DNA of 64,000 nt, from contig WIAF01000006.1 of the NCBI GenBank assembly GCA_014055465.1, forward strand, positions 1 to 64,000, in the 5' to 3' direction. A model generated the notes under the pieces. It did no database searches, was not told the DNA's origin, and was given only the letters and a program-made list of their open reading frames with translations. The DNA is from Nitrospira sp. CR1.1. GTDB lineage: Bacteria > Nitrospirota > Nitrospiria > Nitrospirales > Nitrospiraceae. Below are positions 7,829 to 33,264 of this stretch, piece by piece. Position numbers and translations under genes: made by a program. Numbering within the stretch: the stretch's first letter is position 1; every line of letters begins with the position of its first letter.

Positions 7829-8917
7829 CTAAACTTTCCAACCGGCCTCTGCGTACGTGCGAACCGTGCGATCGACCAGTTGGTTGAGCCCGAACTCTTG
7901 TTCAACTTTCACGCGTCCGGTCTGCCCCATGGTGAGGGCCAAATCAGGATGTTCGATCAACGTCGCAATGCAGTCCGCAAGATTGTGTTCGTCTCCCCTC
8001 TTGACGACGAATCCGGTCTTTCCATGTTCCACGAGAGCCGGGCAATGGCCTGCATCGGTGGCGACGACGGCGCGGGCGCAGGCCATCGCTTCCATCACGA
8101 CATTCGGGCATCCCTCTTCATCAGCCGTGTGAACCAAGAAAGTCGACTGCGCCAACAGGTTCGGAATATCCTGCCGGACGCCCAAAAATTCGATCAAGTG
8201 CTGCACTCCCAAACCCTTGGCTTGCTCTTCCAAGGCCTGACGCAAGGGCCCTTCACCGGCGTGGCGGACACGGAAAGAGAGCCCTCTTTTATGAACCTGT
8301 GCAACGGCCTCCACGAGCCGGTCCCAACGCTTTTGAGGGTAGAGCCTGCCTACGGCAAGCAACTGCGGCGTTCGAGGAAGATCTGACGTCGCCTTGAAAT
8401 GTTGAATATCCAGGCCATTAGGCACCACGCTCAACCGCGAAGGTTTGAACGGCCCAGCCGCCTCTGCGACCGCCTGCTTGGCTGCGAGACTGTTACAGAT
8501 CTGAATTGAGGGCCAGCGGGCGCTTAAACGTCCAAGGATATTGCCGGCTTGCTGGCGATCACTCAGGAAATTGTTCCGGATGGATCCGATGGAGATCATA
8601 TTGGTGCCGAGGGTGCACCACCAGGCAGGAAAATTCGTATAAAAACTGTACGAATGCACAACTTCCGGAGCGAGCGCCTTCACCAACCGGCGCAGCCCCA
8701 TCATTTTTTCGTGGACGGCAAGGTGCTCAGAAAACGTATAGAGGGGAACTCCCAAGGCCTTAATTTTTTCAGCAAAGGCAGTGCCCTGCGCGGCATTCCA
8801 CACCGCCACGGCAGGCCTGTAACGCTGACGGTCAATAGCCTTGAGAAGATAGTAGAGCTGCCGCTCATATCCGCCCAACCGTAGCTGGCCTATGAGGTAG
8901 AGGATTCGAGGTTGCAT
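7829..8917 (-). CDS. glycosyltransferase family 4 (GT-B)
   Basis: A 362-residue GT4 protein. Starting at 8917 it reads MQPRILYLIGQLRLGGYERQL, the typical acceptor-domain loop with GGxExQ. The linker has VVPNGLDIQHF and the donor site VGRLYPQKRWDRLVEA, then EEGCPNVVMEAMACARAVVATDAG, split here only for description. It would transfer a nucleotide-activated sugar with retention on the inner membrane. The frame is open to 9004, but the extra 29 residues do not resemble the family. It lies 95 bases after the carbamoyltransferase fusion. Confidence 0.85.
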   Translation of the reverse strand: MQPRILYLIGQLRLGGYERQLYYLLKAIDRQRYRPAVAVWNAAQGTAFAEKIKALGVPLYTFSEHLAVHEKMMGLRRLVKALAPEVVHSYSFYTNFPAWWCTLGTNMISIGSIRNNFLSDRQQAGNILGRLSARWPSIQICNSLAAKQAVAEAAGPFKPSRLSVVPNGLDIQHFKATSDLPRTPQLLAVGRLYPQKRWDRLVEAVAQVHKRGLSFRVRHAGEGPLRQALEEQAKGLGVQHLIEFLGVRQDIPNLLAQSTFLVHTADEEGCPNVVMEAMACARAVVATDAGHCPALVEHGKTGFVVKRGDEHNLADCIATLIEHPDLALTMGQTGRVKVEQEFGLNQLVDRTVRTYAEAGWKV

Positions 8918-9012
8918 GAGACGGTTTTGATCCCCGTGCGATTCGAAATGGCCTGAAGGGGCAATGAGAATATAGGCCCGGTGAGTATCTTCCAGGACCG
9001 GCATGCCGGTAA

Positions 9013-12000
9013 TCAGAACATGACGTACACGGAATCCGACACATCCTCTTCGAGGGTTTCCGTTGTCGCAAACTCCTGCCCGAGCTTTAGCAGACTGACA
9101 AGCACCGGTTGCAGGGCATCGGTGACCGGCCCCGGTGTCCAGGATTCGCTGATTGCTCGAGCCATGATTTCAGCGTTGAGTTTTGGCGAGTCCATCCCCG
9201 CGGGGATGGAGAAGATTGCCTTCGGCGACTGGTCATCGGTGACATCAGCCCAATTGGTAGCGCCTCGCGACCACACTGTCGAAATCCGGATAAAGCGCTG
9301 CCCCGACGGCGCCAGAGCGATCGGTGAAAACTGTCGTTGGTAAATCTGTCGCAGCCCTTTCATGAATCCGTCAGGCGTGTTTTGAGGCAAGGACCCAACC
9401 TGCTTTTCCAAATGCCCCTTTGTTTCCGGCCACCCGGGCTGCTCGCCCTTCATAAGCAAGCAATTGCCCAGAATCAGCACGTCCATTTCGGTTCGCATGA
9501 AGCAACGGTAGGCGTCATAAGGTGTGCACACGACAGGTTCGCCCCGTACGTTGAAAGAGGTATTCACAATGACCGCATAACCGGTCCGTTGCTCGAAGCT
9601 TTCGATCACATCGTAGTAGAGGGGATGATCCTCCCGACGGATCGTCTGAACACGGGCCGAGTAGTCCACGTGCGTCACGGCGGGGATGTCGCTTCGGGTT
9701 TGTTTGACGATCGATAGGAGATTGCTATTACCAGTCTCTCGAGGCGCCGGTTTGCGTCGGCCCTCCCTGACGGGGGCTACCAACAACATGTAGGGGCTCT
9801 CCCCGTCCAAATCAAAATATTCCCCGGCCTTCTCGGCCAGGACCGTCGGCGCAAAGGGACGGAAGGACTCCCGGTATTTGATCTTGAGATTGAGGGTCAC
9901 CTGCATGTCCTGGTTGCGGGCGTCACCCAAAATTGAGCGGGCTCCCAGGGAACGTGGACCAAACTCCATTCTGCCTGAGAAGTGTCCGACCACTTTCCCC
10001 TCTTCCAAGAGAGCGGCTACCGTACCAGCGCGCTCGTCACGGGACAGGGTGCGATACGGATACCCGTGTGTATCCAGAAACCCTTGAATCTCGCGGTCGG
10101 AAAATTCCGGCCCCCAGTAGGAGCCCCCCTGCGGTGAACGTGTTTTGCCGATGGACGAAGGTCGCCGGTCGAAATAATTATGGTGGGCGTCAAGAGCCGC
10201 CCCTAACGCCGCGCCGGCATCACCGGCTGCCGGTTGGATCCAGATATCCTCAAACGGACCCTCTCGTAGCAGTCGACCGTTGGCGACGCAATTCAGCGCA
10301 ACCCCTCCTGCCATACAGAGGTACTTTTCACCTGTGAGTGTATGGGCGTGCCTGGCCATGCGAAGGATTGCTTCCTCGGTGACCACCTGAATCGAACGGG
10401 CGATGTCCATCTCCCGCTGAGTAATCACCGATTCAGGCTCCCGCGCCGGGCCTCCGAACAGATCACCGAACCGGGGCTTCGTCATGGTCGGTTCTGATAG
10501 GAAAGCGAAGTATTCCAGGTTCAACTCCAGTGACCCATCTTCCTTCAAATCAACCAGGTTTTTGAGGATCGTGTCGACGTACTTTGGTTCACCGTACGGG
10601 GCGAGCCCCATCATTTTGTATTCACCCTCGTTAACCTTGAAACCGGTAAACTGCGTGAACGCGGAATACAAGAGTCCCAGGGAATGGGGGAAACACATCT
10701 GCTTCAGGATCTGAAGGCCGTTCTCCGTCCCGACACCGATCGAGGCAGTCGCCCACTCCCCGACCCCATCAACCACCAGGAGCGCCGCGCGCTTGAAGGG
10801 CGAGGGATAAAACGCACTGGCTGCGTGAGAACGGTGGTGCATCTCATTGAGGATCAGTCCGTCATAGCGGAGATAGCGGCGGATCAGTTGCGGCAGATGG
10901 AGTTTGTATCGAGCCCAAGAGGGGATCGCGCGCAACCAGGCTTCCTCCCCTTTCGGTGCGATGGCCAGCAAGGTATGCAGAATGCGCTCGAAGGTGAGAG
11001 AGGCATTGTCATAGTACACGACCGACGAAAGGTCGCTCTGATGAATCCCTCCCTCCTCCAAACAATAGTTGGCCGCGAGATGCGGAAACCCACGATCGTT
11101 CTTAATGCGGCTGAAGCGTTCCTCGTCCGCAGCGGCAATGATCTCGCCGTCCTTGATCAGCGCTGCGGCGGAGTTGTGATAGAAGCAGGACAGTCCGAGG
11201 ATGTATGTCGGCTTTCTGACCGGCGCCGTCTGGAGAGACCGGCTCACAGGCTTGTTCTTGGCCGGTTGAGGCAGAAGTCCGCGCGCCAGAATGTCTTCCT
11301 TCAGCAGGTGTGCAACCTGCTCATGGCCGAATGGTGAAAAATGGCTGTCATGGCGAAAGCTGAGACGCTCCCGTATCTCCTCAGGCAATGCAGCCAGGCG
11401 TGTAGTCACATCGGTCACGTGCAGCCCCCGCTCAGGCGCTTCCAGACTATTGAACAGATCTTGATACAGCGGCTTCAAGCCATGGAGGTAAAAGAAATAG
11501 GTTGGAATCGGGACGACTAGGAGCGGGATGGCAGATGTGTTCGCGTGAAAACGCTCGATGATGGCCCGCATCAACTTCCAGCCATCATGTCCCGCCGATG
11601 TGTATCCTTGGTACGGCTGAAATCCGCTCTTTCGGAGAAGATGCCCCCGTACTTTCTGAAGCCGGCTTTGGATGGACTCTCCGGCCCTATTCAACCATGG
11701 CAAACTTCGATAGAACTTACTGGACCGATCGACCCATCGGGCGAGACCGTTTCGAGCATCGGCAGTCATTTGAGCTGTGTCGACGCCCGGTCGATCCAAG
11801 GGGACGGGTACGTGGTTCAGTTGCAGGTGGTTTTCGTCCAGCGTGAAGTAGGGCTTCGGTACGAGTACGCGTTTCCCGGTCACACGATCGATGGACTCCC
11901 GGTGGGCGACCGTGATCCGTTGGATATTCTCCACGGTAATGCCGAGCACGATCAGATCCGCTTCAACTTCACGAGCAAACTCTTCAAAAATCAACAGTTG

Positions 12001-12318
12001 CTGATCCGTTCCGGACCCGGACATCCCATAGTTATATACCTCGACATCAAGTTCTTCGCCGAGGCGTTCCGGGAAACGTTGGTGGTTGTCACACCCGTCC
12101 CCGGCCGTATAGGAATCGCCGAAGAACAGGACGCGGCGGCGGCCATTGCGCGGTTTGGAGAATTCGATCTCTGACCGGAAGCCGAGCGAATTCGTCTTGA
12201 CGAAGTAGCCGCCCAATTCGTTCGGAATACGGGCCTTCAAACCAGGCACATACAAGAACCCGACACGAGGGTGATATTGGACCGTCATGCGATGGGTCGA
12301 TTGGCGCAGCAACATCAT
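9013..12318 (-). CDS. SGNH hydrolase-carbamoyltransferase (NodU/CmcH) fusion
   Basis: An unusually long 1101-residue protein. Residues 1-345 form an SGNH/GDSL domain with FFGDSYTAG (nucleophile Ser69) and DSHFSPFGH (324-332). From about residue 370 to 960 is a complete O-carbamoyltransferase of the NodU/CmcH/TobZ family: N-terminal kinase-like fold opening with YILGLSCFYHNSAAALI (His381), and the C-terminal domain with EFGPRSLGARSIL. About 135 further residues match nothing I recognise. The carbamoyl domain would move a carbamoyl group from carbamoyl phosphate through carbamoyl-AMP to a sugar hydroxyl. The SGNH part may act as a second acyl/carbamoyl esterase. The chain is open without a break, so the fusion looks genuine. 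ATG at 12318 has a CGGAG site upstream. Confidence 0.9.
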   Translation of the reverse strand: MMLLRQSTHRMTVQYHPRVGFLYVPGLKARIPNELGGYFVKTNSLGFRSEIEFSKPRNGRRRVLFFGDSYTAGDGCDNHQRFPERLGEELDVEVYNYGMSGSGTDQQLLIFEEFAREVEADLIVLGITVENIQRITVAHRESIDRVTGKRVLVPKPYFTLDENHLQLNHVPVPLDRPGVDTAQMTADARNGLARWVDRSSKFYRSLPWLNRAGESIQSRLQKVRGHLLRKSGFQPYQGYTSAGHDGWKLMRAIIERFHANTSAIPLLVVPIPTYFFYLHGLKPLYQDLFNSLEAPERGLHVTDVTTRLAALPEEIRERLSFRHDSHFSPFGHEQVAHLLKEDILARGLLPQPAKNKPVSRSLQTAPVRKPTYILGLSCFYHNSAAALIKDGEIIAAADEERFSRIKNDRGFPHLAANYCLEEGGIHQSDLSSVVYYDNASLTFERILHTLLAIAPKGEEAWLRAIPSWARYKLHLPQLIRRYLRYDGLILNEMHHRSHAASAFYPSPFKRAALLVVDGVGEWATASIGVGTENGLQILKQMCFPHSLGLLYSAFTQFTGFKVNEGEYKMMGLAPYGEPKYVDTILKNLVDLKEDGSLELNLEYFAFLSEPTMTKPRFGDLFGGPAREPESVITQREMDIARSIQVVTEEAILRMARHAHTLTGEKYLCMAGGVALNCVANGRLLREGPFEDIWIQPAAGDAGAALGAALDAHHNYFDRRPSSIGKTRSPQGGSYWGPEFSDREIQGFLDTHGYPYRTLSRDERAGTVAALLEEGKVVGHFSGRMEFGPRSLGARSILGDARNQDMQVTLNLKIKYRESFRPFAPTVLAEKAGEYFDLDGESPYMLLVAPVREGRRKPAPRETGNSNLLSIVKQTRSDIPAVTHVDYSARVQTIRREDHPLYYDVIESFEQRTGYAVIVNTSFNVRGEPVVCTPYDAYRCFMRTEMDVLILGNCLLMKGEQPGWPETKGHLEKQVGSLPQNTPDGFMKGLRQIYQRQFSPIALAPSGQRFIRISTVWSRGATNWADVTDDQSPKAIFSIPAGMDSPKLNAEIMARAISESWTPGPVTDALQPVLVSLLKLGQEFATTETLEEDVSDSVYVMF

Positions 12319-12521: not shown

Positions 12522-13820
12522 CTAGGAGGTTCTATAGAGAGGAGTTCGCCGCTCCGTGCCGAATGACGGAGAGACAATGCCTTGCGGCCATATCCAGCGA
12601 TGAGCGCCAACCAGCAAGCCCAAGGCCAGCGTAAATTCCTTCGCATAAATGTTATGGCTCACCATGGAAAACAGCATGATGGAGACACCGATCCCAACGA
12701 GGGCCAAGGCAGCCGCTTCTCGATTGGAATGGCGAGGGAGGCAACGATAGGTCTGCCAGAAGATCAATAGGAACGCCATGAGCCCCAAGATACCCCAGTA
12801 CAGCGTCACCTGCATGAAACAGTTATGAGCCCCGCTGACCCGGCCGCTATCGCTCGCAAATTCGGTGCGCCGGCCCCAATGTGTCCAAAAATTTCCGGCG
12901 CCGACACCAGTCAAGACATACTCGGGCAAATGATCGATGGCTGCCCCGTATACAAGGGCTCGCCCTTCCGTCTTACCTTCGTGCTTCTCAAACGTGAAGG
13001 ACATGCGAGACCAGACCGCCTGGGGAACCCACATCAGCACAGCCCCTACGAGGAGGACTGCGATGAGAATCCCCTTCCCATGCCTGAGGCCGAAGGCATA
13101 CATCACCGTCGCGCAGGAAGCGATGGCAATGGCGACGCCGCTCCGCGAGAGGGGGAGGAAGGCGCCCACCAGGCAAATTAGTCCACTGGCGATAAAGAAG
13201 CCACGAGGGAGCGTCGCCCGGGTGACCAATCCCCAGGACAGTGCGATAACGGACGCCTGCGCTGCGCCGAAGGCCATGTTATTTAAATTGGCCTGCAATG
13301 GGTTGTCTTCAAAGGCCGCGGCGCGAAGCTGGGAGGCCTGCTGAAAATCGGTCGCCGTCGCCGCGTTGAGCGCGCCGTAGGAAGTCATGAACAAGAGGAT
13401 CGATAACCACAATCCGGCAGCCAGATATCCATAACAGGCCATCCTGAGGGCCGGGAGGTCCCTGCAGAGAGAGGCCAGCAAAATCGCTCCAATGACCATT
13501 TGGGCCACACGAAGCAACTCATCGTAACTGTGATGAGGGTGTGTCCATTCCAGCAGAAAACCGACGGTCAAAAAGAGGTACGCGGCTATTAATGCCGGAT
13601 GTCCGACTGTCCTCAAAAGTTCAGGAAATCGATTCCACGCAACATAGACGGCAATGATGCCGAACAGAATAAATTGAAGGCTGAAGCCGGGAATGAACAG
13701 GAAATGGTTCTCCGTGGGCAATGCGACAATGGCCAGAAAAATAAGACCTTGTTCAAGGCCCGATGTAGGAGCGCCGCTCCAGGCGTTGCTCCGCACTGCG
13801 CTGGTTGACATAGTTGTCAC
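12522..13820 (-). CDS. O-antigen ligase/polymerase family membrane protein
   Basis: A 432-residue integral membrane protein with about ten to twelve hydrophobic segments. The large loop near residues 275-330 has the Wzy_C/WaaL signature: GRALVYGAAIDHL, then VLTGVGAGNFW and HNCFMQVTLYWG. Members either ligate a finished glycan to lipid A or polymerise repeat units in the periplasm. With an ABC exporter in the same locus, ligation would be the simpler role, but the sequence does not separate these. Its start overlaps the stop of the upstream glycosyltransferase by four bases (ATGA), indicating coupling. Confidence 0.82.
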   Translation of the reverse strand: MTTMSTSAVRSNAWSGAPTSGLEQGLIFLAIVALPTENHFLFIPGFSLQFILFGIIAVYVAWNRFPELLRTVGHPALIAAYLFLTVGFLLEWTHPHHSYDELLRVAQMVIGAILLASLCRDLPALRMACYGYLAAGLWLSILLFMTSYGALNAATATDFQQASQLRAAAFEDNPLQANLNNMAFGAAQASVIALSWGLVTRATLPRGFFIASGLICLVGAFLPLSRSGVAIAIASCATVMYAFGLRHGKGILIAVLLVGAVLMWVPQAVWSRMSFTFEKHEGKTEGRALVYGAAIDHLPEYVLTGVGAGNFWTHWGRRTEFASDSGRVSGAHNCFMQVTLYWGILGLMAFLLIFWQTYRCLPRHSNREAAALALVGIGVSIMLFSMVSHNIYAKEFTLALGLLVGAHRWIWPQGIVSPSFGTERRTPLYRTS

Positions 13821-15896: not shown

Positions 15897-16967
15897 TCAT
15901 CTCTCGGAGAGTAAGGGCACAGAAAGGCCGGTATCCAGTCGTTGTTTCCAAGAGGAACAGATTTCTTCCAGGATCGCCGGTAATGTCATCGTGAGGGCCC
16001 AAGATGGGTAGTGCGTTTGAATCTTGGAGAGGTCCGAGATGTAGCAGATGTGGTCTCCTTCCCGATTCCTGTCGGTGTACTCATAGGTCATGGATTTCCC
16101 CGTGATCTGTTCGACCATCTCGAACGCCTCCAGGATCGAACAAGAGTTGTTCCGCCAGCCACCCAGGTTGTATACCTCGCCGCACCGAGGCTTCTCTATG
16201 AAGTGATGGATGAACCTCGCCACATCGTACGAATGACTGTTGTCACGGACCTATTTGCCTTTATACCCATAGATCCGGTATAGGCCGCCGGTCAGGTTGA
16301 CCTTCACCAGGCAACTGAGAAAACCGTGAAACTCTACTCCCGAATGGTTCGGGCCGGTCAGGCAACCGCCCCGCAGGCAGCAGGTGGATAATCCGAAGTA
16401 TCGTCCGTACTCTTGCACCATCACGTCAGCCGCCACCTTCGACGCGCCGAAGAGAGAGTGTTTGGATTGATCGATCCGCATATCTTCTCGGATGCCACCA
16501 CGATCGCCGGCTTCGGCGTACTCCCAACACGACGAAAGCTCCACCAACGGCAGACCGTTCGGTGCGTCACCGTAAACCTTGTTGGTCGACATGTATACGA
16601 AGATGGCGGATGGCGGATGGCGCATAGCGCCGCACTGCATCAAGAAGATTGAGCGTGCCAACCGCGTTGACATCGAAATCGTCGAAGGGCCGGGAGGCAA
16701 GCAGGTCGTGACTCGGTTGGGCCGCGGCATGCACGATCGTGCCTGGGCGAAGTTCCTCAATGAAGGAAAGCACGCCAGCGCGATCGCGGATATCGAGTTC
16801 ATGGTGGCGGAAGTTGCGGCACTGGGTTTCGAGCCGCATCTGCTTCCGTCCGGTGTCTCCTCCCCGTCCGAAAAACCCGGCCCGCATGTTGTCCACGCCA
16901 GGGCGTCAACGTATCGCACCACCTCCGAACCGATGAGCTCGCTTGAGCCGGTCACAACGATCTTCAT
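15897..16967 (-). pseudogene. broken NAD-dependent sugar epimerase/dehydratase (CDP-paratose 2-epimerase-like)
   Basis: Pieces of one extended-SDR epimerase lie in two frames. The N-terminus [17 protein letters not shown] starts at 16967 and overlaps the upstream acyltransferase stop (ATGA). Near 16897-16905 several codons are missing and the frame shifts; the Rossmann continuation ([18 protein letters not shown]) runs in the second frame. At 16602-16622 a third copy of a 7-base repeat shifts it back, giving [10 protein letters not shown]. After YGYKGK a TAG at 16251-16253 interrupts the frame where the family usually has Gln (KQVRDN), and the C-terminal third (VYNLGGWRNN) runs on to 15897. 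The first glycine motif also has GSSELIG instead of GSSGLIG. Three independent lesions point to decay rather than read error. Confidence 0.85.
16602..16622. repeat. three tandem copies of 7-mer gatggcg
   Basis: Exact repeats at 16602-16608, 16609-16615 and 16616-16622. Removing one copy restores the reading frame [13 protein letters not shown] expected for the epimerase. The extra unit probably arose by replication slippage. Confidence 0.9.
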
Positions 16968-22423: not shown

Positions 22424-23296
22424 TCAGAGGCCCACTCGACGCAACTTGTTCATCACCGGCACCTCGCTCGGGTAGAGGCACTTCTTGCCGTCGCCCATAG
22501 CTTTATGGATGGCCCGAACATCCTTTACCAAACGCCACACACCCTGCGGCTCAATCGAAGCCGCTTGATCGCTTCCCCACATAGCCCGATCCAACGTGAT
22601 ATGGCGTTCGATCATGCAGGCTCCCAGCGCCGCTGCGGCAACCGACGTGGCTAAGCCGACTTCGTGACCCGAGTAGCCGATCGGGACGTCGTACCGCTCG
22701 CGCAACGTCTGCAGGGCTGCCAGATTCAATTCTTCCACCGACGAAGGATAGGTGCTCGTGCAATGAAGAATAATGAGATCATTGGTCCCCAATACTTCGA
22801 CCGCATGATCGATCTGCTCGATGGTGCTCATTCCAGTCGAAATAATGAGCGGCCTGCCGCAACTCCGGTGATGCCGTAATAGATTGTCGTCGGTCAGACT
22901 TGCTGAAGCGATCTTGTAGCAGGGCGGGTTGAACTGCTCCATGAAGTCGACCGAAGGTTCATCCCAACAGGACCCGTACCAGAGAATATCTTTCTCCCTG
23001 CAGTAGCGATCGATTTCTCCGTACTGTTCGCGCCCGAATTCCAACCCGCGCTTGAGATCACCGTTGGTCTTTCCAAAAGGATTTTCGCGAGGTTTGCTCA
23101 GTTCCTCAGGCGTATAGACGATCTCAAGCGTCCGCTTCTGGAATTTGACGGCGTCGCAGCCTGCAAGCGTCGCGGTGTCGATAAGCTTCTTGGCGATCTC
23201 AACGTTTCCATTGTGATTAATCCCGATCTCGGCAACTATGAAACAGGGTTGCCCCTCACCCACTGAAAACTTCCCTATCTGAACAGTGCGGCTCAT
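22424..23296 (-). CDS. NeuB-family nonulosonate synthase lacking a SAF domain
   Basis: A 290-residue PEP-condensing synthase. It has the NeuB barrel motifs FIVAEIGINHNGN, CDAVKFQKR, YKIASASLTD, ISTGMST, HCTSTYPSS and GYSGHE. The C-terminal antifreeze-like (SAF) domain present in most NeuB proteins (usually about 340-350 residues) is absent; the chain ends shortly after the barrel. It joins PEP to a sugar aldehyde to give a 2-keto-3-deoxy acid. The strong AAAGGAGGGG site fixes the start at 23296. Its neighbours (acetyltransferase, CMP-synthetase, phosphatase-isomerase) make a complete nonulosonate set. A second NeuB, with SAF, is at 34251-35270. Confidence 0.88.
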   Translation of the reverse strand: MSRTVQIGKFSVGEGQPCFIVAEIGINHNGNVEIAKKLIDTATLAGCDAVKFQKRTLEIVYTPEELSKPRENPFGKTNGDLKRGLEFGREQYGEIDRYCREKDILWYGSCWDEPSVDFMEQFNPPCYKIASASLTDDNLLRHHRSCGRPLIISTGMSTIEQIDHAVEVLGTNDLIILHCTSTYPSSVEELNLAALQTLRERYDVPIGYSGHEVGLATSVAAAALGACMIERHITLDRAMWGSDQAASIEPQGVWRLVKDVRAIHKAMGDGKKCLYPSEVPVMNKLRRVGL

Positions 23297-23448
23297 CGTA
23301 CCCCTCCTTTGTAAAAAATAAGTGTGTCGGCTGTTTGTGACTTGAAGAATAACGGACAACGCATGGATTGGCGCTGAACTGATGGTCCAGCAACTTCTTC
23401 GGCGATTACATCCACGGGTCCGAAGATCGTGGAGGCCTCACCTCGATC

Positions 23449-24033
23449 CTAATTATCCTTGTACAGGCCCTGTTCCCGGGAACTGTCACTGCAGGCGGGC
23501 TTCAACTGGGCATTGCGATAGCGAATGAGTTTTGCCGGATTGCCGGCCACAACGGCATAGGGTTGGACGTCTTTCGTGACAACCGAGCCTGCGGCGAGCA
23601 CGGCTCCGTGGCCGATGGTGACGCCGGGCAAAATGATCACCCGCGTTCCAATCCACACGTCATCACCGATGACGACGGGATCAGGGCCGGTGCCACCCTG
23701 CGCCGTCATCGGGATATCCAGCCTGTCGGACTTGTGATTCGAGGTGATAATGATAACATCCGGTCCCATCATGACGTGCTTCCCCAGGGAGACCGGACCA
23801 TACAATCGGCAGTTAATGCCGAGGCCGGAATAGTCTCCGATGCGGATATTGCGTCCGTCGCCGAAGAAGGCCTTCTGTTCCACGTTGACGCCACGTCCCA
23901 TCTGTGCAAACAACCCGCGGCAGGTCGCCCGGCGGAGGACCCGTGCCCACTTGCCATAACTGTTGTCCGAGGCCGGCAAATGCCTCGCGAATCCATAGTA
24001 GGCCAGAAGGCTCATCAATCGGGTGACGCGCAT
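23449..24033 (-). CDS. hexapeptide-repeat acetyltransferase
   Basis: A 194-residue left-handed beta-helix acetyltransferase. Hexad turns include IRIGDYSGLGIN and VSLGKHVMMGPDV; the late part has DDVWIGTRVIILPGVTIG, GAVLAAGSVVTKDV and VAGNPAKLI. This is the WbbJ/maltose-acetyltransferase group. Lying between NeuB-like and NeuA-like genes, it may O-acetylate the nonulosonate, as NeuD or NeuO-type enzymes do, but the sequence itself does not show the acceptor. About 150 bases separate it from the NeuB gene. Confidence 0.82.
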   Translation of the reverse strand: MRVTRLMSLLAYYGFARHLPASDNSYGKWARVLRRATCRGLFAQMGRGVNVEQKAFFGDGRNIRIGDYSGLGINCRLYGPVSLGKHVMMGPDVIIITSNHKSDRLDIPMTAQGGTGPDPVVIGDDVWIGTRVIILPGVTIGHGAVLAAGSVVTKDVQPYAVVAGNPAKLIRYRNAQLKPACSDSSREQGLYKDN

Positions 24034-24108
24034 CGTGATGAGAGAGAATGGTCGGTCAGAGAGTCGAATCGTGCGGAGCGGCGGTACCGGGCCGCCGGCG
24101 TATGTAAT

Positions 24109-24864
24109 TCAGACGGGATGACGCATCCCTTGTGCGGTAACGCGCTCGCCGCCGTATTGCATCTGATGGAGAGCCTGTTCAACTGCAGGGATGTCCTCCG
24201 GGTAATCGACTTCCAGCAATTCCTCGTTGTGGATATAGGGCAGCGCACACGTTCCCCACATGGACTGCTTCTCAAGAATGGCGCGGGGCCGGATGACATC
24301 TACGTATCCATTCTGCCAATACACAACCGGCAACTGTTGTCGCGGGAGCGATTGGCAGTCCGGCACGTTTTCGATCCGAAGCACCGGCTGCAACTGACCG
24401 GCCGAGTTCACGTGCCACATTTTGTACGGGGTCTGACGGGCGACACTCACCGAGCGGACCGCATCCGCTTCGGGGTGCGACCGCAACAGTTCAATGGCTT
24501 CGTCGATGTGCTCGACGCGACGAACGGGCCCCGGCGGGCGAAGATGAACCACCAACTCGGGTGAGTACCCTTCCTGCTCTGAGAACCAGTTCAGCGCATG
24601 GCGAAACACATCGATATCCGGTGACGCGTCTCCTGCGCACCACTCCGGACGGATGAATGGGACCTCGGCTCCCCACTCCCGTGCGATCTGGGCAATCTCC
24701 TGATCATCCGTCGATACCACGACTCGCTTGATCCATTTCGACGCCAGCGCCTGCAGGATCGAGTAGGCGATCAGCGGCTTTCCCGCGATCGGGAGGATGT
24801 TCTTGCGAGGGACGCCTTTCGAGCCGCCCCGCGCCGGTATGAGCGCCAGTATCGTCGGATCCAT
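24109..24864 (-). CDS. acylneuraminate cytidylyltransferase-like CMP-sugar synthetase
   Basis: A 251-residue NeuA-like enzyme. From the ATG at 24864 it reads LALIPARGGSKGVPRKNI, the nucleotide-binding loop of CMP-sialate and CMP-Kdo synthetases, then VVVSTDDQEI and the LRPPGPVR segment where relatives have LQPTSPLR. It would couple CTP with the 2-keto-3-deoxy acid made by the nearby NeuB. The start codon overlaps the methyltransferase stop (TGATG). A second CMP-synthetase is at 31357-32091, also near a NeuB, so two activated acids may be made. Confidence 0.85.
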   Translation of the reverse strand: MDPTILALIPARGGSKGVPRKNILPIAGKPLIAYSILQALASKWIKRVVVSTDDQEIAQIAREWGAEVPFIRPEWCAGDASPDIDVFRHALNWFSEQEGYSPELVVHLRPPGPVRRVEHIDEAIELLRSHPEADAVRSVSVARQTPYKMWHVNSAGQLQPVLRIENVPDCQSLPRQQLPVVYWQNGYVDVIRPRAILEKQSMWGTCALPYIHNEELLEVDYPEDIPAVEQALHQMQYGGERVTAQGMRHPV

Positions 24865-25769
24865 CAGGCCTTTCTCGCCAACAGGCGAATCCAGGCGCCT
24901 GCTGACCGGTCTTCGTGATAGTGAAAGTGAGGATGCACCCTCCGATCGATCCAGTGCGGAGGGTGATTGAACAGTTTCTGCGAGGCGCGCCGGGCGCCTT
25001 CTCTCATGATATGGCGCCATCCGGTTTCGGGCGTTGTCCGCCCGCAACTCGACACGGCAACAATCGTCATGCCGCTCTCCTGGAAAAGCCGAATCAAGGA
25101 TGCCTGCGTAAAGAACAGCAGATGGGGAAGGTCCAGCGGCGATTCAGATAAGTGTTCCTCATTCGGCACTTCGCAGAACACGTGTCCCTGTTGCGTCAGG
25201 AGGCGCTGAATATCCTTCAGAAATTGACGGGGTCTCGTCAAATGTTCCAGGACATGGGAAAAACTGACCACATCCCAGAAAGTCCTCGTCTCGAAGAGGC
25301 TGGCGTACAGGTGATGCCCTGCTTCCTGTATCTGCCTGCCGCAGCGTAGGTCGGGTTCGATCGCCCCTGTTCTGGCAACCTGTTGCCGGCGGGCTTCGTC
25401 AAGCAGCAATCCATGGCCGGCCCCGATGTCGAGCCAACTTCCCACTACCCTCAGAGATTCCAGGACAAATTCGACTTGCGCACGGGCCCTCACGGAACCG
25501 CCATCCCAGGCATCGGGGCGGGTGTCGTCGCCGCTCTGTCCCCGCTCCGCCCGATAATTTTCCGCGTAAAACGCTTCAAGCTCGTTCTCTTGAGGCAATG
25601 GGCAGGCAAAGGCGGCATGGCACTGTTCGCACGACCGGATGGAGAGTCCAGAAAAAGGGCCCCGCGATTGCGTCGCTCCGCTCCGGTACGGCCGGACAAC
25701 GGCCGTTTCCTGAGCCAAGCATACGGGACAACGGAACGCGGTTGTTTCTTGGAGCATCGTCGGCATCAT
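24864..25769 (-). CDS. SAM methyltransferase with N-terminal zinc-ribbon-like cysteines
   Basis: About 301 residues. The N-terminus carries CPVC and CEQCH pairs (near residues 14-17 and 47-51), as in many sugar C-methyltransferase-like proteins. The SAM domain has SWLDIGAGHG and FSHVLEHLTRPRQFL, then EVPNEEHL, the usual order for this family. It is wedged between the Gfo/Idh and CMP-synthetase genes and translationally coupled to the latter, so it probably methylates an intermediate of that cassette or the sugar after transfer. The upstream GTG at 25823 is an alternative start. Confidence 0.8.
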   Translation of the reverse strand: MMPTMLQETTAFRCPVCLAQETAVVRPYRSGATQSRGPFSGLSIRSCEQCHAAFACPLPQENELEAFYAENYRAERGQSGDDTRPDAWDGGSVRARAQVEFVLESLRVVGSWLDIGAGHGLLLDEARRQQVARTGAIEPDLRCGRQIQEAGHHLYASLFETRTFWDVVSFSHVLEHLTRPRQFLKDIQRLLTQQGHVFCEVPNEEHLSESPLDLPHLLFFTQASLIRLFQESGMTIVAVSSCGRTTPETGWRHIMREGARRASQKLFNHPPHWIDRRVHPHFHYHEDRSAGAWIRLLARKA

Positions 25770-25844
25770 ATCGTTGCCTGATTTCCGGGTTGCGTGGAGT
25801 CCTTGGAGCGGAGGCGTCTCCACGTTCAGTTGAAGCGCCAGGAT

Positions 25845-26915
25845 TCAGTGGTTGTCGGCGAGCGTGGTCCGTTGATCGGGCGCGAAGGCCACGGGGGCGC
25901 CCCCACGAAGCGACTCGTCGGCCAGGAGAGAGAACCGGAGGCTGCGGACTGATTCCCGCAGGTCGACCAGCGGCTGAGTTTCGCCCCGTAAACAGGCAAG
26001 AAAATGGCGGAGTTCATCCACAAACATCTGATTGCGCTCAAACCCGCGGAACTGGATCTGCTGAGTCGTTCGTGACTTCACGTCATGAAAGACCACCTGA
26101 TTGCTATAAAAGTCATAGTGAACCTTCCCGGCATCTCCGATCACTTCGCAAACTCGCTGCGCAGGCCGTTGCAGGTAGTCCAGGTGAATGTGCACTGGAA
26201 AGACTCCGCCGCGATCCTCACAGGACAGCAGGACACTGACGGAATCTTCGACGTCGAGTTCGAGCCCGCTGAGGTGTCCTCCGACGGCGTACAGACGGCG
26301 AGGCATTCCGAACAGCCATAAGGCATAATCGAATTCGTGTGTTTGAATGCGGAGCGCCCCTCCCCCGAGGGCCCTCCTCGCGGCGTGGCTTTGCCGGTAG
26401 TCTTCATAGGGGTGCCAGTCCGGAAGATACTCCCCGTTCACGATGTGGACGGCAGCGAGCCTCCCGAGACGGCGTTCTTCGAGCAGATTCTTGATCCAGC
26501 GCAACCCCGGATGGAAACGAAATTGATAGGCCACAAAGGCCGTCAGGTTCTTGCGCTCGACAATCTCTATCAGCTCCTCGACCCCATCGAGAGAATCAGC
26601 GAGGGGCTTCTCGATAAACAGGTGACATCCCGCCTTGGCTGCCGCCAAGGCGACTGACAGGTGCAAGCTGTTGGGATTCGTCACGAACACTGCATCCGGT
26701 TTCTGACCCAAGGCGTCATCAAGATTCGAAAAGGATCGGATGTTGTACGTCGACTCCAGGGTAGCGCCTTGCTTTACGGTCATGTCTGCGTTGAGGACAG
26801 GGCTATCGCCGTTAGCCCGATAGGCGAGGATCTCGACCTGCTCGCCCATCAGCGCACGAAGGTTCCGGACATGCCGTTGGCCAATTGAACCGAGTCCCGC
26901 GAACAATACTTTCAT
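25845..26915 (-). CDS. Gfo/Idh/MocA-family oxidoreductase
   Basis: A 356-residue dinucleotide-dependent sugar dehydrogenase. It starts KVLFAGLGSIGQRHVRNL (Rossmann loop), then AVFVTNPNSLHL and the family's catalytic EKPLADS (Lys of the EKP motif). The C-terminal half has the mixed alpha/beta fold. In nonulosonate clusters such enzymes oxidise or reduce sugar intermediates. AAGGGGAG upstream supports the ATG at 26915. It directly follows the FAH-fold gene with a ten-base gap. Confidence 0.88.
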   Translation of the reverse strand: MKVLFAGLGSIGQRHVRNLRALMGEQVEILAYRANGDSPVLNADMTVKQGATLESTYNIRSFSNLDDALGQKPDAVFVTNPNSLHLSVALAAAKAGCHLFIEKPLADSLDGVEELIEIVERKNLTAFVAYQFRFHPGLRWIKNLLEERRLGRLAAVHIVNGEYLPDWHPYEDYRQSHAARRALGGGALRIQTHEFDYALWLFGMPRRLYAVGGHLSGLELDVEDSVSVLLSCEDRGGVFPVHIHLDYLQRPAQRVCEVIGDAGKVHYDFYSNQVVFHDVKSRTTQQIQFRGFERNQMFVDELRHFLACLRGETQPLVDLRESVRSLRFSLLADESLRGGAPVAFAPDQRTTLADNH

Positions 26916-26925
26916 CGTCTCCCCT

Positions 26926-27717
26926 TTACACGGTTTCTGCCGTGGCGTGCCCGCATGCTCCGCAGGCTGCGATCCGATTCACCAACCGTCCGATTCCTTC
27001 AATCTCGACGGCCACCTCATCACCCGGAACTACGGCCGGCTTTGGCGGCGGGGTGCCCAGGGCCACCACGTCGTAGGGTTCCAGCGTCATGATGCTCGAT
27101 ACGTAAACCAGGCACTCCACCACGCCGAATCTCATAGCTGCGGTCGTACCCTGCTGGACGACCTCTCCATTCCGCCGTGTGAGGAGAGTGAACGGACGGA
27201 TCGTGGAGTCGAGATTCAGATAGGGACCCATCGGTGCGAACCCATCCGCAGACTTCTTCACCGCAGGCGGAACCACACGGAGGGTGCTGTCACGACCTGA
27301 AAGATCGTTGACCACTGTCCACCCTAAGATGACACCCGGCGCCTCGTCCTTGGTCAGGTTCCGGCATCGCCGCCGCACGACCACCCCTAGCTCTCCTTCT
27401 GCGACGACCGATCGAAAGACAGGGGGCAGCTCGATGGTTGTCAGGTGACCCGTGAACGATGACGGCGGTTTAATAAAGAACGATGGGTAAGGATCAGGCC
27501 CCAGCGGCTCCTCCCCTGGAAAATTGGCGCCGATCCCGACCAGTTTCGTCGCAGGGACTGGCGGCAGGAACCGGACCTTTGCTGCGGCGACACGCTTGTT
27601 TGTCTTCGTGAACCCGTCGAGCGGCGATCCGGACAAGAGCACCAGGTCGGTTTCATCCGGCGCAGCGTACCAGACCGTTCCTTCCCAACTAATTCGTGCG
27701 ATCCGGTCTTCACGCAC
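26926..27717 (-). CDS. fumarylacetoacetate hydrolase-fold protein
   Basis: About 263 residues from a GTG at 27717, with AAGGCGAG seven bases upstream; the GTG overlaps the preceding kinase stop. An ATG at 27795 would add residues that resemble nothing. FAH-superfamily marks are VGIGANFPGEE, the metal-binding VAEGELGVVV and GWTVVNDLSGRDST, and a C-terminal EIEGIGRL. The family acts on 2-keto acids (hydrolases, decarboxylases and dehydratases such as 2-keto-3-deoxy-sugar-acid dehydratases). A nonulosonic acid is itself a 2-keto-3-deoxy acid, so a step on that scaffold is conceivable. This is inference; FAH proteins are otherwise rare in glycan loci. Confidence 0.82.
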   Translation of the reverse strand: MREDRIARISWEGTVWYAAPDETDLVLLSGSPLDGFTKTNKRVAAAKVRFLPPVPATKLVGIGANFPGEEPLGPDPYPSFFIKPPSSFTGHLTTIELPPVFRSVVAEGELGVVVRRRCRNLTKDEAPGVILGWTVVNDLSGRDSTLRVVPPAVKKSADGFAPMGPYLNLDSTIRPFTLLTRRNGEVVQQGTTAAMRFGVVECLVYVSSIMTLEPYDVVALGTPPPKPAVVPGDEVAVEIEGIGRLVNRIAACGACGHATAETV

Positions 27718-28732
27718 AGACGCCACTCGCCTTGAGAAATTTGATGTTTGCCAGGTGGAGCGGACAGATGTTGTCGATGAAACAGGTGTATTCACCCGTC
27801 GTTCTTACCCGATGCAGGATCCGCAACACCTTTTCGATTTCAATGCCCACCATCGCATGGTGTAAGTCATGAAGAAATTCCGGCTTCTGATGCTCCGCCC
27901 CCGCAAATACTGCAATGGCCTTCCGCAAGACCTCGGGGCTCCGCTCGCGCTGCAAAAAGGCGAACCGCACAATGCTAAATCCCAGACAAGGCAGCCGCCG
28001 GTCGATAATCATGTTGTCGAGATCGATCATGGTCGCCTGGTCTCGATCGTGATTGAATAGCGCGTTCCGCGGATGGAAATCCGTGTGGACCAGGCACTCG
28101 TTAGGCGGCAAACTGGGACGATCGCTGAGCGTTCGTTCCACGGCCCACTCGACAATATCCCACTGGTCGAGAATCCGGGCATAGGCCTGGCGAGCCGGGG
28201 CCTGGTCCTTAAGAAATCCCTGCAGCGTGGGCACCTCGCTTGCGGTCGTACGAAGGGGATACGCCTTGTGAAAACCACTCATCCTCTTTCTGGTTTCCTC
28301 GCTGAGGCAAGCCAGTCCTTCGGCATGAAGTCTACGCAGCGAACTCGCACTGCGTCGGGGGTCCAATTCCGGGTCGGCATATACCCTGCCATTGTTGAAC
28401 ACATAGAGACGTAAGAGATGGCCCTGGTAACGATGAACGAAGCACCCATCGTCACCACGAACGATCTCTTCAACCGGGAGGCCGGCACGATGGAGCTCGA
28501 ATACCGCCTGACCCACGACCTCGAGCCGCTCGGCCACCCCCTGCTGCCCGTAGAGAGCCTGGGGATGAGCCATCACCTTTAACAGGAACCGCCCGCCGGT
28601 CGCCGAGTATTCGAACAGATTATTGCTGACTTGAAACTCAAAGGTGAGCGGGGCGAGCTTGACCGGACGCCCGAGCGAAGCATAACTCGCAGCAAGATGC
28701 TTGATGAGAGCGGTGAACGGAGGTGTCAGCAT
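27710..28732 (-). CDS. APH/choline-kinase-type phosphotransferase
   Basis: A 340-residue kinase-fold protein. Lys52 in FLLKVM should bind ATP; the catalytic loop is VHTDFHPRN (Asp218) and the metal loop MIDLDN (Asp237/Asp239), as in aminoglycoside, homoserine and choline kinases. It probably phosphorylates a small sugar or amino alcohol. It starts inside the stop of the SDR gene upstream (TGATG) and its own stop overlaps the FAH-fold start, so the three are closely linked. A sugar kinase would supply the phosphorylated substrate expected by the KdsC-like phosphatase, but this is inferred from context. Confidence 0.82.
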   Translation of the reverse strand: MLTPPFTALIKHLAASYASLGRPVKLAPLTFEFQVSNNLFEYSATGGRFLLKVMAHPQALYGQQGVAERLEVVGQAVFELHRAGLPVEEIVRGDDGCFVHRYQGHLLRLYVFNNGRVYADPELDPRRSASSLRRLHAEGLACLSEETRKRMSGFHKAYPLRTTASEVPTLQGFLKDQAPARQAYARILDQWDIVEWAVERTLSDRPSLPPNECLVHTDFHPRNALFNHDRDQATMIDLDNMIIDRRLPCLGFSIVRFAFLQRERSPEVLRKAIAVFAGAEHQKPEFLHDLHHAMVGIEIEKVLRILHRVRTTGEYTCFIDNICPLHLANIKFLKASGVCA

Positions 28733-29511
28733 CAGTCAAGCCCCGCATACATGCCGCCATCCACCCGGATGAAATTTCCGGTGAGATAGGCGGCGCGTTC
28801 CGACGCGAGAAAGGCGACCACGTGGCCGACATCCTCCGGCGTCCCCAGGCGCCCTTTCGGGATGCGCCCGATTGAGGTGGAAAGTGCCTCGTCGAAAGAG
28901 GTCTTAAGACTATCGGCCCTTTTCTGAATCAATGAACGTGACCGGGCAGTCATAATGGAGCCCGGCAATACCATATGGACGTTGACGTCATGCGGAGCAA
29001 GCGCGCGGGCAAGTGTGCGGTGCACTGCGGCCAGACCGCCGCGCATGAAGTTGGAAAGATCCAGCCCTTCGATCGGAGCTTTCACAGACAGCGACGCGAT
29101 GGTGATGATGCGCCCCCACCGGCGCGCGCGCATGCCCGGTACGACGCGCCGGATTGCTCTCATCAGGGAGATGGCCTGCTCGTCAAATGCCGTACGCCAG
29201 GCGTCATCGGGCAGATCGAGGATATTCCCTGGCTTGGGGCCACCTGTGTTATTGACCAGGATGTCGGTACCGCCGAAGCGCTCTTCTACAAAACCGAACA
29301 GCCGTTCGAGATCGTCGGATGAAGCCAGATCTCCGGGAAAGATGAGCGCGTCGTGACCGCGTTTGATGAAGCCGGTCCGCGCGGCATCAAGCTTCTCCCT
29401 GGAGCGCGAGAAGATAACAACGCGATGTCCTTCCTCCCCGAGGCATTGCGCGGCGGCGAGACCGAGTCCCTCGGATCCCGCAAGAATGACGGCGGTTCTC
29501 TGTGTCTTCAC
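28732..29511 (-). CDS. SDR-family oxidoreductase with atypical active site
   Basis: A 259-residue SDR resembling FabG-like proteins. The dinucleotide loop is AGSEGLGLA and NNTGG is kept. The usual Tyr-x-x-x-Lys is absent: after Ser140 the expected positions read SNFMR (Ser153, Arg157). A related SDR subgroup has the same SNxxR pattern, so it may be a real variant and not damage. The C-terminal YLTGNFIRVDGG is normal. It may reduce a keto sugar or act non-classically. It is coupled to the kinase gene by TGATG. Confidence 0.8.
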   Translation of the reverse strand: MKTQRTAVILAGSEGLGLAAAQCLGEEGHRVVIFSRSREKLDAARTGFIKRGHDALIFPGDLASSDDLERLFGFVEERFGGTDILVNNTGGPKPGNILDLPDDAWRTAFDEQAISLMRAIRRVVPGMRARRWGRIITIASLSVKAPIEGLDLSNFMRGGLAAVHRTLARALAPHDVNVHMVLPGSIMTARSRSLIQKRADSLKTSFDEALSTSIGRIPKGRLGTPEDVGHVVAFLASERAAYLTGNFIRVDGGMYAGLD

Positions 29512-29600
29512 CTGATCTGTCTCACGTTGATCACAACTGTTTCAATGGTGTCGCCGGACGGCACAAGGGTGAACAGGCAACGGGTGCGATCCGAAGCGAT

Positions 29601-31355
29601 CTACGTCTTGTGAGCGGCTTTCATCGATTCAATCAGATGGTGATTGAGCGCGACACTGATCCATTGCCACACATAAAAAGAATTGTCGCTCTCGCCCCGG
29701 AGGTATCGCTCCCATGACTCATGCAGACGAATCTTGTCAAACCATCCGCTCTGGGTGACGCTTGCATGCGCCAGACAACTCTCCACCCAGTCCCGGAGGG
29801 GCCCTCGCAACCATTCGCGCTGTGGTGTCTGCACGGGCCGTTTCGGAGCCTCAGCAAAGTCTTTCGGCAGGAGCGGGCGAACGATTTCCCGGAGGAGATA
29901 TTTGTGCTGGTCGTGGCGGATGAGACGATGATCAGGCTGTTTGAAGGCCAGTTCAACCAACCGGTAATCGAGAAACGGTTCCCGCAACTCGCAGGACGCT
30001 TGTGAGGAAGCTCGATCGTTGAAACGCAATGCCCGCGGAAGTTTCGTATACCGGAGATCGCAATAACGAAGGTTCGACAGCCGGCCTCGAAAGGGTTCCG
30101 GATAGACCGGCCGAGGCCGCAGCGAGGTGAAGGCCTCTGAGAGACACCCATGGCTGGTCGACCCATTGAGAGATCCCTGGACGGGCATGGATCCTGATAA
30201 GGCACTCCCTGCGCCTTGTGCGTAGTAACTATACCCTGCCCACTGTTCGTCGAGGCCCTGCCCGTCCAGCAGCACCGTTGTTCCGGAACTCTTGGCCAGC
30301 TTGAAGAGTTGAATCATCGCCAAGGTCGGAAATCCCCCGAACGGCTCCTCTTGAGAAAGGATCGCTTCTTCGGCGAGGTCGGGGATCTCAGCCGCAGCAA
30401 GATACGCTATGTTGAGCGGATAGCGGGTTTCTGCGAGCAATTTCCTGACCCATGGTGTTTCATCGTAGGCGGCATCACCACAGGCGAAGTGGTAGGTCTG
30501 GATATCCTGGCCTGAACCGAACAGCTCCTTCAACAGCGCAACCAGCGTCGAGGAATCCAGGCCACCGCTGAGGCAGACCCCGACGGGGACGTCTGAGCGG
30601 AACCGAATTCGCACAGCATCCTGGAGAAGCCGGTGGTATTCCTCGCCGACAATGCTGTCCGAACGTTCGTCCGGCCAGGATGACTTCACCCGTTCCGGAA
30701 GGTCATACCAGCGATGTAGCTCAATACGGCCGTCTTGCCAGGAAAGATAATGGCCAGGAGGGACCCGCCTGATACCCTTGAAGAAGGTACCGGAACCGTC
30801 ATCATAGGCACCGAAGCGGAGGTAGGCGAACCAGGTGTCCTGGTCGGGCTCCAAGGGGACGCCAGCCGCTGCGAGTGATTTGATCTCCGACGCAAAATAG
30901 AGCGTACCGTCCACTTCGGCATAGTAGAGCGGCTTGACCCCGAAACGATCTCTGACCAACAACAATCGCTCGGTAAGACGGTCCCAGATCGCACAGGCGA
31001 ACATTCCGTTCAGCCGGTGGAAACTGTCGGGCCCCCACCGGGCAAAGGCTTCAAGGACAACTTCCGTGTCAGTTCCTGTTTCAAATGACCTCCCAAGGTC
31101 GGACTTCAACTCGAGATAATTGTACACCTCTCCGTTGTAGGTCATGACGTAACGACGATCGTGACTTATCATCGGCTGGTGACCGCGGGAGGAGAGATCG
31201 AGCACGGCCAGACGCCGGTTGCCAAGTGCCACGCGAGATTCAACCCACACGCCTTCCCCATCCGGCCCGCGATGCGCGAGGGGACGGGTCATGAGTTGAA
31301 TCGTGCGATCAGAGGCGACTCGCTCTGAGTCGACGTATCCGCTAATGCCACACAT
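29601..31355 (-). CDS. asnB: asparagine synthase (glutamine-hydrolysing), AsnB-type, second copy
   Basis: A 584-residue protein starting at ATG 31355 so that Cys2 (MCGISGY) is the glutaminase nucleophile; the upstream ATG at 31370 would bury it. HRGPDGEG and the SGGLDSS pyrophosphate loop are intact. It differs clearly from the copy at 5825-7753. It directly follows the CMP-synthetase gene with no gap, so it could amidate a sugar carboxylate such as that of the nonulosonate, or form asparagine. Confidence 0.88.
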   Translation of the reverse strand: MCGISGYVDSERVASDRTIQLMTRPLAHRGPDGEGVWVESRVALGNRRLAVLDLSSRGHQPMISHDRRYVMTYNGEVYNYLELKSDLGRSFETGTDTEVVLEAFARWGPDSFHRLNGMFACAIWDRLTERLLLVRDRFGVKPLYYAEVDGTLYFASEIKSLAAAGVPLEPDQDTWFAYLRFGAYDDGSGTFFKGIRRVPPGHYLSWQDGRIELHRWYDLPERVKSSWPDERSDSIVGEEYHRLLQDAVRIRFRSDVPVGVCLSGGLDSSTLVALLKELFGSGQDIQTYHFACGDAAYDETPWVRKLLAETRYPLNIAYLAAAEIPDLAEEAILSQEEPFGGFPTLAMIQLFKLAKSSGTTVLLDGQGLDEQWAGYSYYAQGAGSALSGSMPVQGSLNGSTSHGCLSEAFTSLRPRPVYPEPFRGRLSNLRYCDLRYTKLPRALRFNDRASSQASCELREPFLDYRLVELAFKQPDHRLIRHDQHKYLLREIVRPLLPKDFAEAPKRPVQTPQREWLRGPLRDWVESCLAHASVTQSGWFDKIRLHESWERYLRGESDNSFYVWQWISVALNHHLIESMKAAHKT

Positions 31356-31356
31356 G

Positions 31357-32091
31357 TTAGAGATTTCCACTTCGTTCTAGGGCGATCTGCTCCGACATCA
31401 TGAGTTCGGCCAGCTTGAGATCGAGTTCTGTATCGATACTCACCGATCGTTCCAGAGGCATCACGTAGGGACGAATCGTTTGGCCCCAAATGGACCCCTG
31501 CTCCATCAAGACGCCCCGCCTGGTCAGATAGACCGATCCGTTACGCATGTACGCCGCCGGCTGGTAATCCTGCCGTCTGGTGCCTTCCTTCTCTTCCACG
31601 CAAAACGGCAGGAGGACGTCATTGTCGATGCGCTTCATCAGGATGGGGTGTGTGGCAAAAACCCGCACCACACTGATGACGGAATCACAACCGCCCGCCA
31701 TCCCCAAACGGAGGCACTGCTCAAGATCCGAAACCGTACGAAACGGTTCCGTCGGTTGGAGAAGACAAATCCAATCCATACGGACCGCATCCTGTCTTTC
31801 AATAAACTCGACCGCATGTTGGAGCATGGGAATCATAGGTGACTCGTCGCGAGCCAGATTCGCCGGCCTGAGAAATGGCACCTCCGCCCCATACGCTCTT
31901 GCCACCGCCGCAATCTCCTCATCATCTGTACTCACAATGATGCGGTGGAACAGATGCTGCGCTGCGCGGGCATGTTCAATGGTATGGGCAATCAGCGGCC
32001 TCCCACAGACGGACCGAATGTTTTTGCGAGGCACCCCTTTCGAGCCGCCCCGAGCCGGAATCACTGCCAGTACTTTCTGGGTCCTGTCCAT
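31357..32091 (-). CDS. neuA: acylneuraminate cytidylyltransferase (NeuA-like)
   Basis: A 244-residue CMP-sugar synthetase. The N-terminus has LAVIPARGGSKGVPRKNIR, then IIVSTDDEEI, DWICLLQPTEPFR and the typical C-terminal DTELDLKLAE. It would activate the nonulosonic acid made by the adjacent NeuB. It is coupled to the NeuC-like gene upstream (TGATG) and only two bases from the AsnB start. Sequence is closer to bona fide CMP-Neu/CMP-Leg synthetases than the copy at 24109. Confidence 0.88.
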   Translation of the reverse strand: MDRTQKVLAVIPARGGSKGVPRKNIRSVCGRPLIAHTIEHARAAQHLFHRIIVSTDDEEIAAVARAYGAEVPFLRPANLARDESPMIPMLQHAVEFIERQDAVRMDWICLLQPTEPFRTVSDLEQCLRLGMAGGCDSVISVVRVFATHPILMKRIDNDVLLPFCVEEKEGTRRQDYQPAAYMRNGSVYLTRRGVLMEQGSIWGQTIRPYVMPLERSVSIDTELDLKLAELMMSEQIALERSGNL

Positions 32092-33242: not shown

Positions 33243-33264
33243 AATGACTCCGATCCGGCTTCCG

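Follow-up and report, generated by a model that had tools for sequence, protein, structure and literature searches.

The gene at positions 9013–12318 of the window (the whole stretch of 64,000 nucleotides from Nitrospira sp. CR1.1 that was analyzed) encodes, in one uninterrupted frame of 1101 codons on the minus strand, an SGNH domain (residues 1–350), a complete NodU/CmcH-type carbamoyltransferase (residues 372–958), and a helical tail of about 135 residues. The unit consists of three parts and not two, because related cassettes encode the small protein to which the tail corresponds by a third gene of its own. The product is probably a soluble one-chain version of a surface-glycan carbamoylation cassette, in which the SGNH domain would remove an ester and the tail would dock by its C-terminal peptide. 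The main interest lies in this peptide, which the tail has in common with other small proteins, and in the helper family rather than in the two-domain fusion alone. The features of the gene and its neighbors are as follows.

9013..12318, minus strand: fused gene, 1101 codons and stop (orthologous fusions known)
11269..12318, minus strand: SGNH/GDSL-type domain, residues 1–350 (PF13472, hydropathy, fold match to CgnD and GDSL enzymes)
12112..12114, minus strand: codon of Ser69, predicted nucleophile (block I, GDSY), invariant in 12 aligned SGNHs
11341..11349, minus strand: codons of Asp324-Ser325-His326, D-x-H motif (block V), His invariant
11209..11268, minus strand: linker between SGNH domain and carbamoyltransferase, residues 351–370 (AlphaFold2 pLDDT <60)
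10192..11202, minus strand: carbamoyltransferase N-terminal (Kae1-like) domain, residues 373–709 (Pfam, GdmN mapping)
9448..10017, minus strand: carbamoyltransferase C-terminal (YrdC-like) domain, residues 768–957 (Pfam, fold match)
9016..9420, minus strand: tail module, residues 967–1101, mainly helical (homology to a stand-alone small protein, AlphaFold2)
9016..9042, minus strand: C-terminal peptide VSDSVYVMF (form common to split small proteins and DUF5989)
7829..9004, minus strand: GT4 glycosyltransferase, 8 bp downstream of the fused gene
12522..13820, minus strand: Wzy/O-antigen-ligase family protein, upstream (surface-polysaccharide cluster context)

The fusion of SGNH domain and carbamoyltransferase, which the sequence-only reading had proposed, is real. 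The start codon is backed by relatives that begin in the same way (MMLLRQSTHRM, MFLLLQSTHRM, MFLLKQATHRM), and a sister genome of the same genus carries a fused frame with 92% identity. Between these two genomes, dN/dS is 0.18 for the SGNH domain, 0.07 for the transferase, and 0.20 for the tail, which indicates purifying selection on all three parts. A sequencing artefact or chance read-through was ruled out as the origin of the frame by this selection and by the fusions in other genomes. That resequencing would split the frame, named beforehand as the refuting outcome, is very unlikely, because full-length fusions recur in genomes from four phyla that were assembled independently, an isolate genome among them.

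These relatives came from a scan in which each species was represented by one genome and which returned full-length fusions with 53–58% identity in assemblies of Verrucomicrobiota (two tandem copies in one assembly), Acidobacteriota, and Planctomycetota (Stieleria sedimenti), as well as a truncated fusion in a MAG without assignment. A tail-profile search detected one additional fusion, 1092 residues long, from the same phylum as the Verrucomicrobiota genome. The fusion is rare: with the query genome included every time, the count is 3 of 395 genomes in the window's phylum (one of the three being a contig-edge fragment) and 1 of 392 and 2 of 387 in two other sampled phyla. A tree built from the transferase domains unites all fused sequences in a single clade (SH-aLRT 99); the two rows within it that are labeled "other" represent additional copies of the window and of the sister locus. 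The simplest reading is that the fusion arose once and then passed between phyla by transfer. In a literature search, judged by titles, no paper appeared to deal with such an SGNH–carbamoyltransferase fusion.

The carbamoyltransferase is complete, as had been claimed, since both Pfam domains are covered end to end (Carbam_trans_N, PF02543, residues 373–709, E 2e-85, model positions 2–346 of 346; Carbam_trans_C, PF16861, residues 768–957, E 1.4e-69, model positions 1–170 of 170). An alignment with GdmN, for which the reference residues have been reported (PMC9633730), assigns His381 as the base (H27 in GdmN) and His494, His498, Asp517, and Asp700 as the metal ligands (H133, H137, D156, and D333, respectively). 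In the fold search, this part matched TobZ, GdmN, VtdB, and NovN with Z 33–34 over approximately 530–550 residues. The score for the NodU nodulation protein equivalog (NF041651) was 125.5 bits and thus below the cut-off of 1000; on these profiles the transferase is assigned to the NodU superfamily, yet not to NodU itself. The NodU-type domains would activate carbamoyl phosphate with ATP and transfer the carbamoyl group to a hydroxyl group of a cytoplasmic glycan precursor.

The last 135 residues had been described as resembling nothing known. No match was found for them in Pfam or NCBIfam; a search of the tail alone against PDB sequences gave nothing significant, and tblastn of the tail against plasmids gave no match. 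The tail is not an orphan, however. An alignment of fused tails with split small proteins (hhalign) covered the full length (Prob 96.6, E 5.5e-10), and the match was weaker but kept after removal of the last 14 residues (Prob 81, P 1.2e-5). With hmmsearch, the fused-tail profile detected the small protein of locus L011 (E 4e-4) and, with L011 added, that of L012 (E 0.006). Small protein and tail also occupy the same position in the gene order. Because the profile–profile match to the split small proteins extends over the full length, the tail is identified by homology as the fused form of the stand-alone small protein. The family is new in that it is absent from Pfam and NCBIfam. The split small proteins and the profile match rule out the tail as a lineage-specific oddity. 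The AlphaFold2 model built from 82 sequences is good (pTM 0.88), whereas a 16-sequence model was of low quality over the latter half of the transferase; the tail is predicted to be helical, and its helices have good confidence.

The separate-gene form occurs in at least 14 other loci, a partial count, and 13 of the 14 contain all three genes, with SGNH first, the carbamoyltransferase second, and the small protein last. In L008, L009, L010 (Massilia), L011, and L012, the SGNH gene adjoins the transferase gene upstream and the small gene follows directly; the transferases of these five loci are placed next to the fused clade in the tree. With the Massilia small protein as query, nine Oxalobacteraceae genomes were added, in all of which the transferase gene lies directly upstream of the small gene, preceded by the SGNH gene in eight. 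In the remaining locus (L120), the upstream region is devoid of an SGNH gene, and a 70% identical SGNH is encoded approximately 720 kb away in the genome, which we count against the preferred explanation. The three split genes overlap or nearly touch, and the small proteins of two Massilia species show a dN/dS of 0.22, indicative of purifying selection. The previously suggested link to adjoining SGNH and carbamoyltransferase genes elsewhere is thus borne out by the split-gene loci. In another locus (L064), a carbamoyltransferase fused to SxtJ is followed by DUF5989; cassette members therefore fuse in more than one way.

The fused tails end with SDSVYVMF or near variants, the split small proteins with SPYVYAMF, SPFIYEMF, SQFVYVMY, or DASLYVMF. 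Ordinary cassettes of the same transferase clade carry DUF5989 (PF19451), a membrane protein of 50–60 residues with one helix, whose gene is usually located a few hundred bases 3' of the transferase gene and whose product ends with PFIYTLF or near variants. A frame with the ending Y-x-[MLIVF]-[FYW] was found at the transferase or up to 1.5 kb after it in 60 of 84 loci, compared to 4 of 4697 other frames, in loci that are phylogenetically non-independent. DUF5989 was detected in 55 of 87 likewise non-independent loci by its own profile, which was made from members picked by their ending; no tail-type locus, fused or split, gave a match. No co-occurrence of the tail-type helper and DUF5989 was observed in the sampled loci. 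The tail as a divergent DUF5989 was ruled out beyond the last 15 residues: Pfam gave no whole-domain match of the tail to PF19451, and hhalign neither aligned fused tails meaningfully with DUF5989 nor related DUF5989 to tails or split small proteins outside these residues. Two unrelated scaffolds which carry one peptide and replace each other point to a common binding site for both peptides, most simply on the carbamoyltransferase.

Our tentative proposal, put forward at somewhat less than even confidence, is that the PFIYxLF/SxxVYVMF end serves as a motif for docking or gating across a whole clade of glycan carbamoyltransferases, and that one peptide is offered to a common site by both the membrane helix of DUF5989 and the soluble tail. 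In the 82-sequence AlphaFold2 model, the position of the C-terminal peptide is of low confidence (pLDDT around 40 over residues 1088–1101), so docking is something we infer rather than take from the model. Approximately 20 carbamoyltransferase loci have neither DUF5989 nor a tail in the fetched DNA, which counts against the preferred explanation. If the proposal is true, the carbamoyltransferases of the clade differ from their relatives in antibiotic pathways by acting as complexes that are either anchored or self-docked, and the fusion puts the docking into a single chain. A literature search found no paper naming DUF5989.

The SGNH domain comprises a strand-rich N-terminal extension and was recognized by Pfam as Lipase_GDSL_2 (PF13472) at residues 65–332 (E 5.9e-9, 37.1 bits, cut-off 32.9). 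Blocks I, II, and V are present (Ser69, Gly98, Asp324/His326), and Asn131 is located at a plausible place for block III. Ser69 and His326 do not vary among the 12 aligned SGNH sequences. The residues D105-Q106, R134, and K155-P156-Y157 are invariant as well and may bind the substrate. In three fusions (L005, L006, and L103), Asp324 is replaced by Gly and Asn131 by Ser; because both the acid and the block III Asn are exchanged, some members of the family may not be classical hydrolases. These replacements, together with the invariance of the putative substrate residues, would also fit a binding or scaffolding domain which holds the glycan substrate and in which catalysis is not needed throughout the family. 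The nearest solved structure, that of CgnD, belongs to an enzyme with reported leader-peptide release that is slow on a peptide substrate in vitro and that is not labeled by PMSF (PMC10070186). With Ser69 and His326 retained in every aligned sequence and a low dN/dS, we consider a scaffolding role improbable.

The domain contains no membrane anchor. In all fused and split SGNHs, the mean hydropathy over 19 residues reaches at most 1.02, so that a hydrophobic N-terminal segment is lacking, whereas the other SGNHs in the fetched loci have such a segment (≥1.92), mostly with more positive charge preceding it. A hydrophobic segment preceded by positive charge predicts a periplasmic domain for these other SGNHs. 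Since the anchored SGNH of L057 aligned along its length with the fused/split profile (E 2.2e-19), the SGNHs form one family, and its members that are coupled to the transferase in the fused or split form are the ones without an anchor. This raises a question of sidedness: the SGNHs of ordinary cassettes look periplasmic, and the fused SGNH is joined to an ATP-using cytoplasmic enzyme. Because of the missing anchor, the SGNH domain of the fusion is predicted to be cytoplasmic, where it would act on the same precursor as the transferase, most likely by removal of an ester (acyl or carbamoyl).

AlgX and AlgJ act in the periplasm. If the SGNH domain were an O-acyltransferase or acyl-shuttling domain of their kind, two decorations would be added and none removed. 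The D-x-H motif, a local sequence similarity to AlgJ (profile, E 2.8e-6), and a match to the AlgX/AlgJ O-acetyltransferase family (PF16822) fit such a role, as does an MBOAT O-acyltransferase gene in the same cluster, which in L006 is found directly downstream of the fusion. The PF16822 match was nevertheless below threshold (24.3 bits, cut-off 26.5), the aligned part of AlgJ has its D-x-H near the N-terminus and not 255 residues after the serine as here, and the fused domain has neither anchor nor signal, in contrast to the periplasmic AlgX/AlgJ. An acyltransferase is therefore a doubtful reading.

The sequence-only reading had suggested that the protein may carbamoylate and edit the same sugar. 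In an editing enzyme, the SGNH domain would specifically take off the carbamoyl group added by the NodU domain, in a proofreading step or a reversible modification as proposed for SxtL of saxitoxin biosynthesis. The SGNH and carbamoyltransferase parts are fused here and encoded by neighboring genes elsewhere, and the excerpts of the saxitoxin studies assign decarbamoylation to SxtL and describe a Lyngbya wollei cluster in which sxtI is truncated and sxtL is absent (PMC2679770, PMC3037375). In the same excerpts, the role of SxtL is a proposal without enzymology and not proven. In addition, the predicted periplasmic SGNH of ordinary cassettes is set apart from the transferase, a poor fit to immediate editing, and a futile cycle within one chain would need a selective trigger. 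Editing thus seems unlikely, if a little easier to entertain than a scaffold or an acyltransferase.

In the preferred reading, that of a one-chain carbamoylation cassette with ester removal, the tail would be a fused-in helper subunit whose helical body is tethered beside the transferase, and its SDSVYVMF peptide would occupy the transferase site taken by the C-terminal peptide of DUF5989 in ordinary cassettes. A surface glycan as the presumed target agrees with the upstream Wzy/O-antigen-ligase family gene and with further genes in the window for an asparagine-synthase-type amidotransferase, a polysaccharide deacetylase, and nonulosonic acid. The GT4 gene is probably part of the same transcript as the fused gene. 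NodU-type carbamoyltransferases occur in very many surface-glycan clusters, together with small partners (SxtJ, DUF5989). The three-part fusion is direct evidence for an SGNH enzyme, a transferase, and a helper as one functional unit, reveals an undescribed protein family (tail/small protein), and offers a soluble single chain for the study of function, substrate, and C-terminal peptide.

The closest published gene set is sxtI-sxtJ-sxtK-sxtL of saxitoxin biosynthesis, which, like the fusion, combines a carbamoyltransferase, small partners, and an SGNH/GDSL protein. It also resembles the ordinary surface-glycan cassettes (NodU-type transferase, the SxtJ family in L064, DUF5989, SGNH); judged from its gene length of 165 bp and its position, SxtK would be a DUF5989 protein. 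SxtJ and SxtK are proposed to work with the transferase in the excerpts of PMC2679770 and PMC3037375. In the sxt cassette, the genes are separate, SGNH comes last, and SxtJ and SxtK are present, whereas the fusion is one chain with SGNH first, a tail, and no membrane partners.

The class III O-carbamoyltransferases of antibiotic biosynthesis (GdmN, TobZ, NovN, VtdB) have the same Kae1-like and YrdC-like domains with the same ligands and base, but are without an SGNH domain. GdmN possesses an essential C-terminal auxiliary domain (PMC9633730). This domain dimerizes via a β-sheet, whereas the tail of the fusion is predicted to be helical and has its own C-terminal peptide. For the SGNH part (residues 1–343), the best solved match is the crocagin hydrolase CgnD (PDB 8a2n; Z 22.2, rmsd 3.3, 236 aligned residues, 17% identity), compared to Z 16–17 (up to 17.3) for GDSL enzymes; the sequence profile of the SGNH domain does not find CgnD. 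The crocagin cluster also includes a carbamoyltransferase, CgnI (PMC10070186). CgnD is encoded by a separate gene, and its triad (Asp325, His328, Ser79) has the spacing D-x-x-H instead of D-x-H in the fusion. DUF5989, with about 55 residues and one membrane helix, differs from the soluble helical module of 110–135 residues that forms the tail, to which it has no similarity outside the last 15 residues; like the tail, it is found next to NodU-type genes and has the PFIYTLF-like ending.

The three-part fusion is present twice, in tandem, in one Verrucomicrobiota genome (L004:7977-14628), and the tails of the two copies have diverged (dN/dS 0.42 between them). Ahead of this tandem lies a nonulosonic-acid gene set similar to that of the window, which comprises two NeuB-like synthases, one NeuC-like epimerase and two PseF-like cytidylyltransferases (22424-35270). 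The window's gene cluster further contains a stand-alone SGNH/GDSL protein (1330-2424) in addition to the fusion. Its MBOAT O-acyltransferase (40708-42171) is 46% identical to the one located directly after the fusion in another locus (L006:11498-13051). The NAD-dependent epimerase at 15897-16967, apparently in two short frames, is probably a decayed gene; a 92-residue fragment of the same part is kept in the sister genome.

The split arrangement of an Oxalobacteraceae genome (G1255) includes a transferase-small protein pair without an adjoining SGNH gene (L120:900-4427), and an SGNH protein with 70% identity is encoded approximately 720 kb from this pair.

An ordinary carbamoyltransferase was also detected in the window's own genome (G000:C14:70122-80707), with the only DUF5989 gene of this genome about 9 kb away. 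Both helper types thus occur in one genome, at different loci. In an ordinary cassette (L064:1675-4074), an SxtJ domain (PF19588, above cut-off) is fused to the carbamoyltransferase C-terminus and directly followed by DUF5989, which is a further fusion inside the same cassette.
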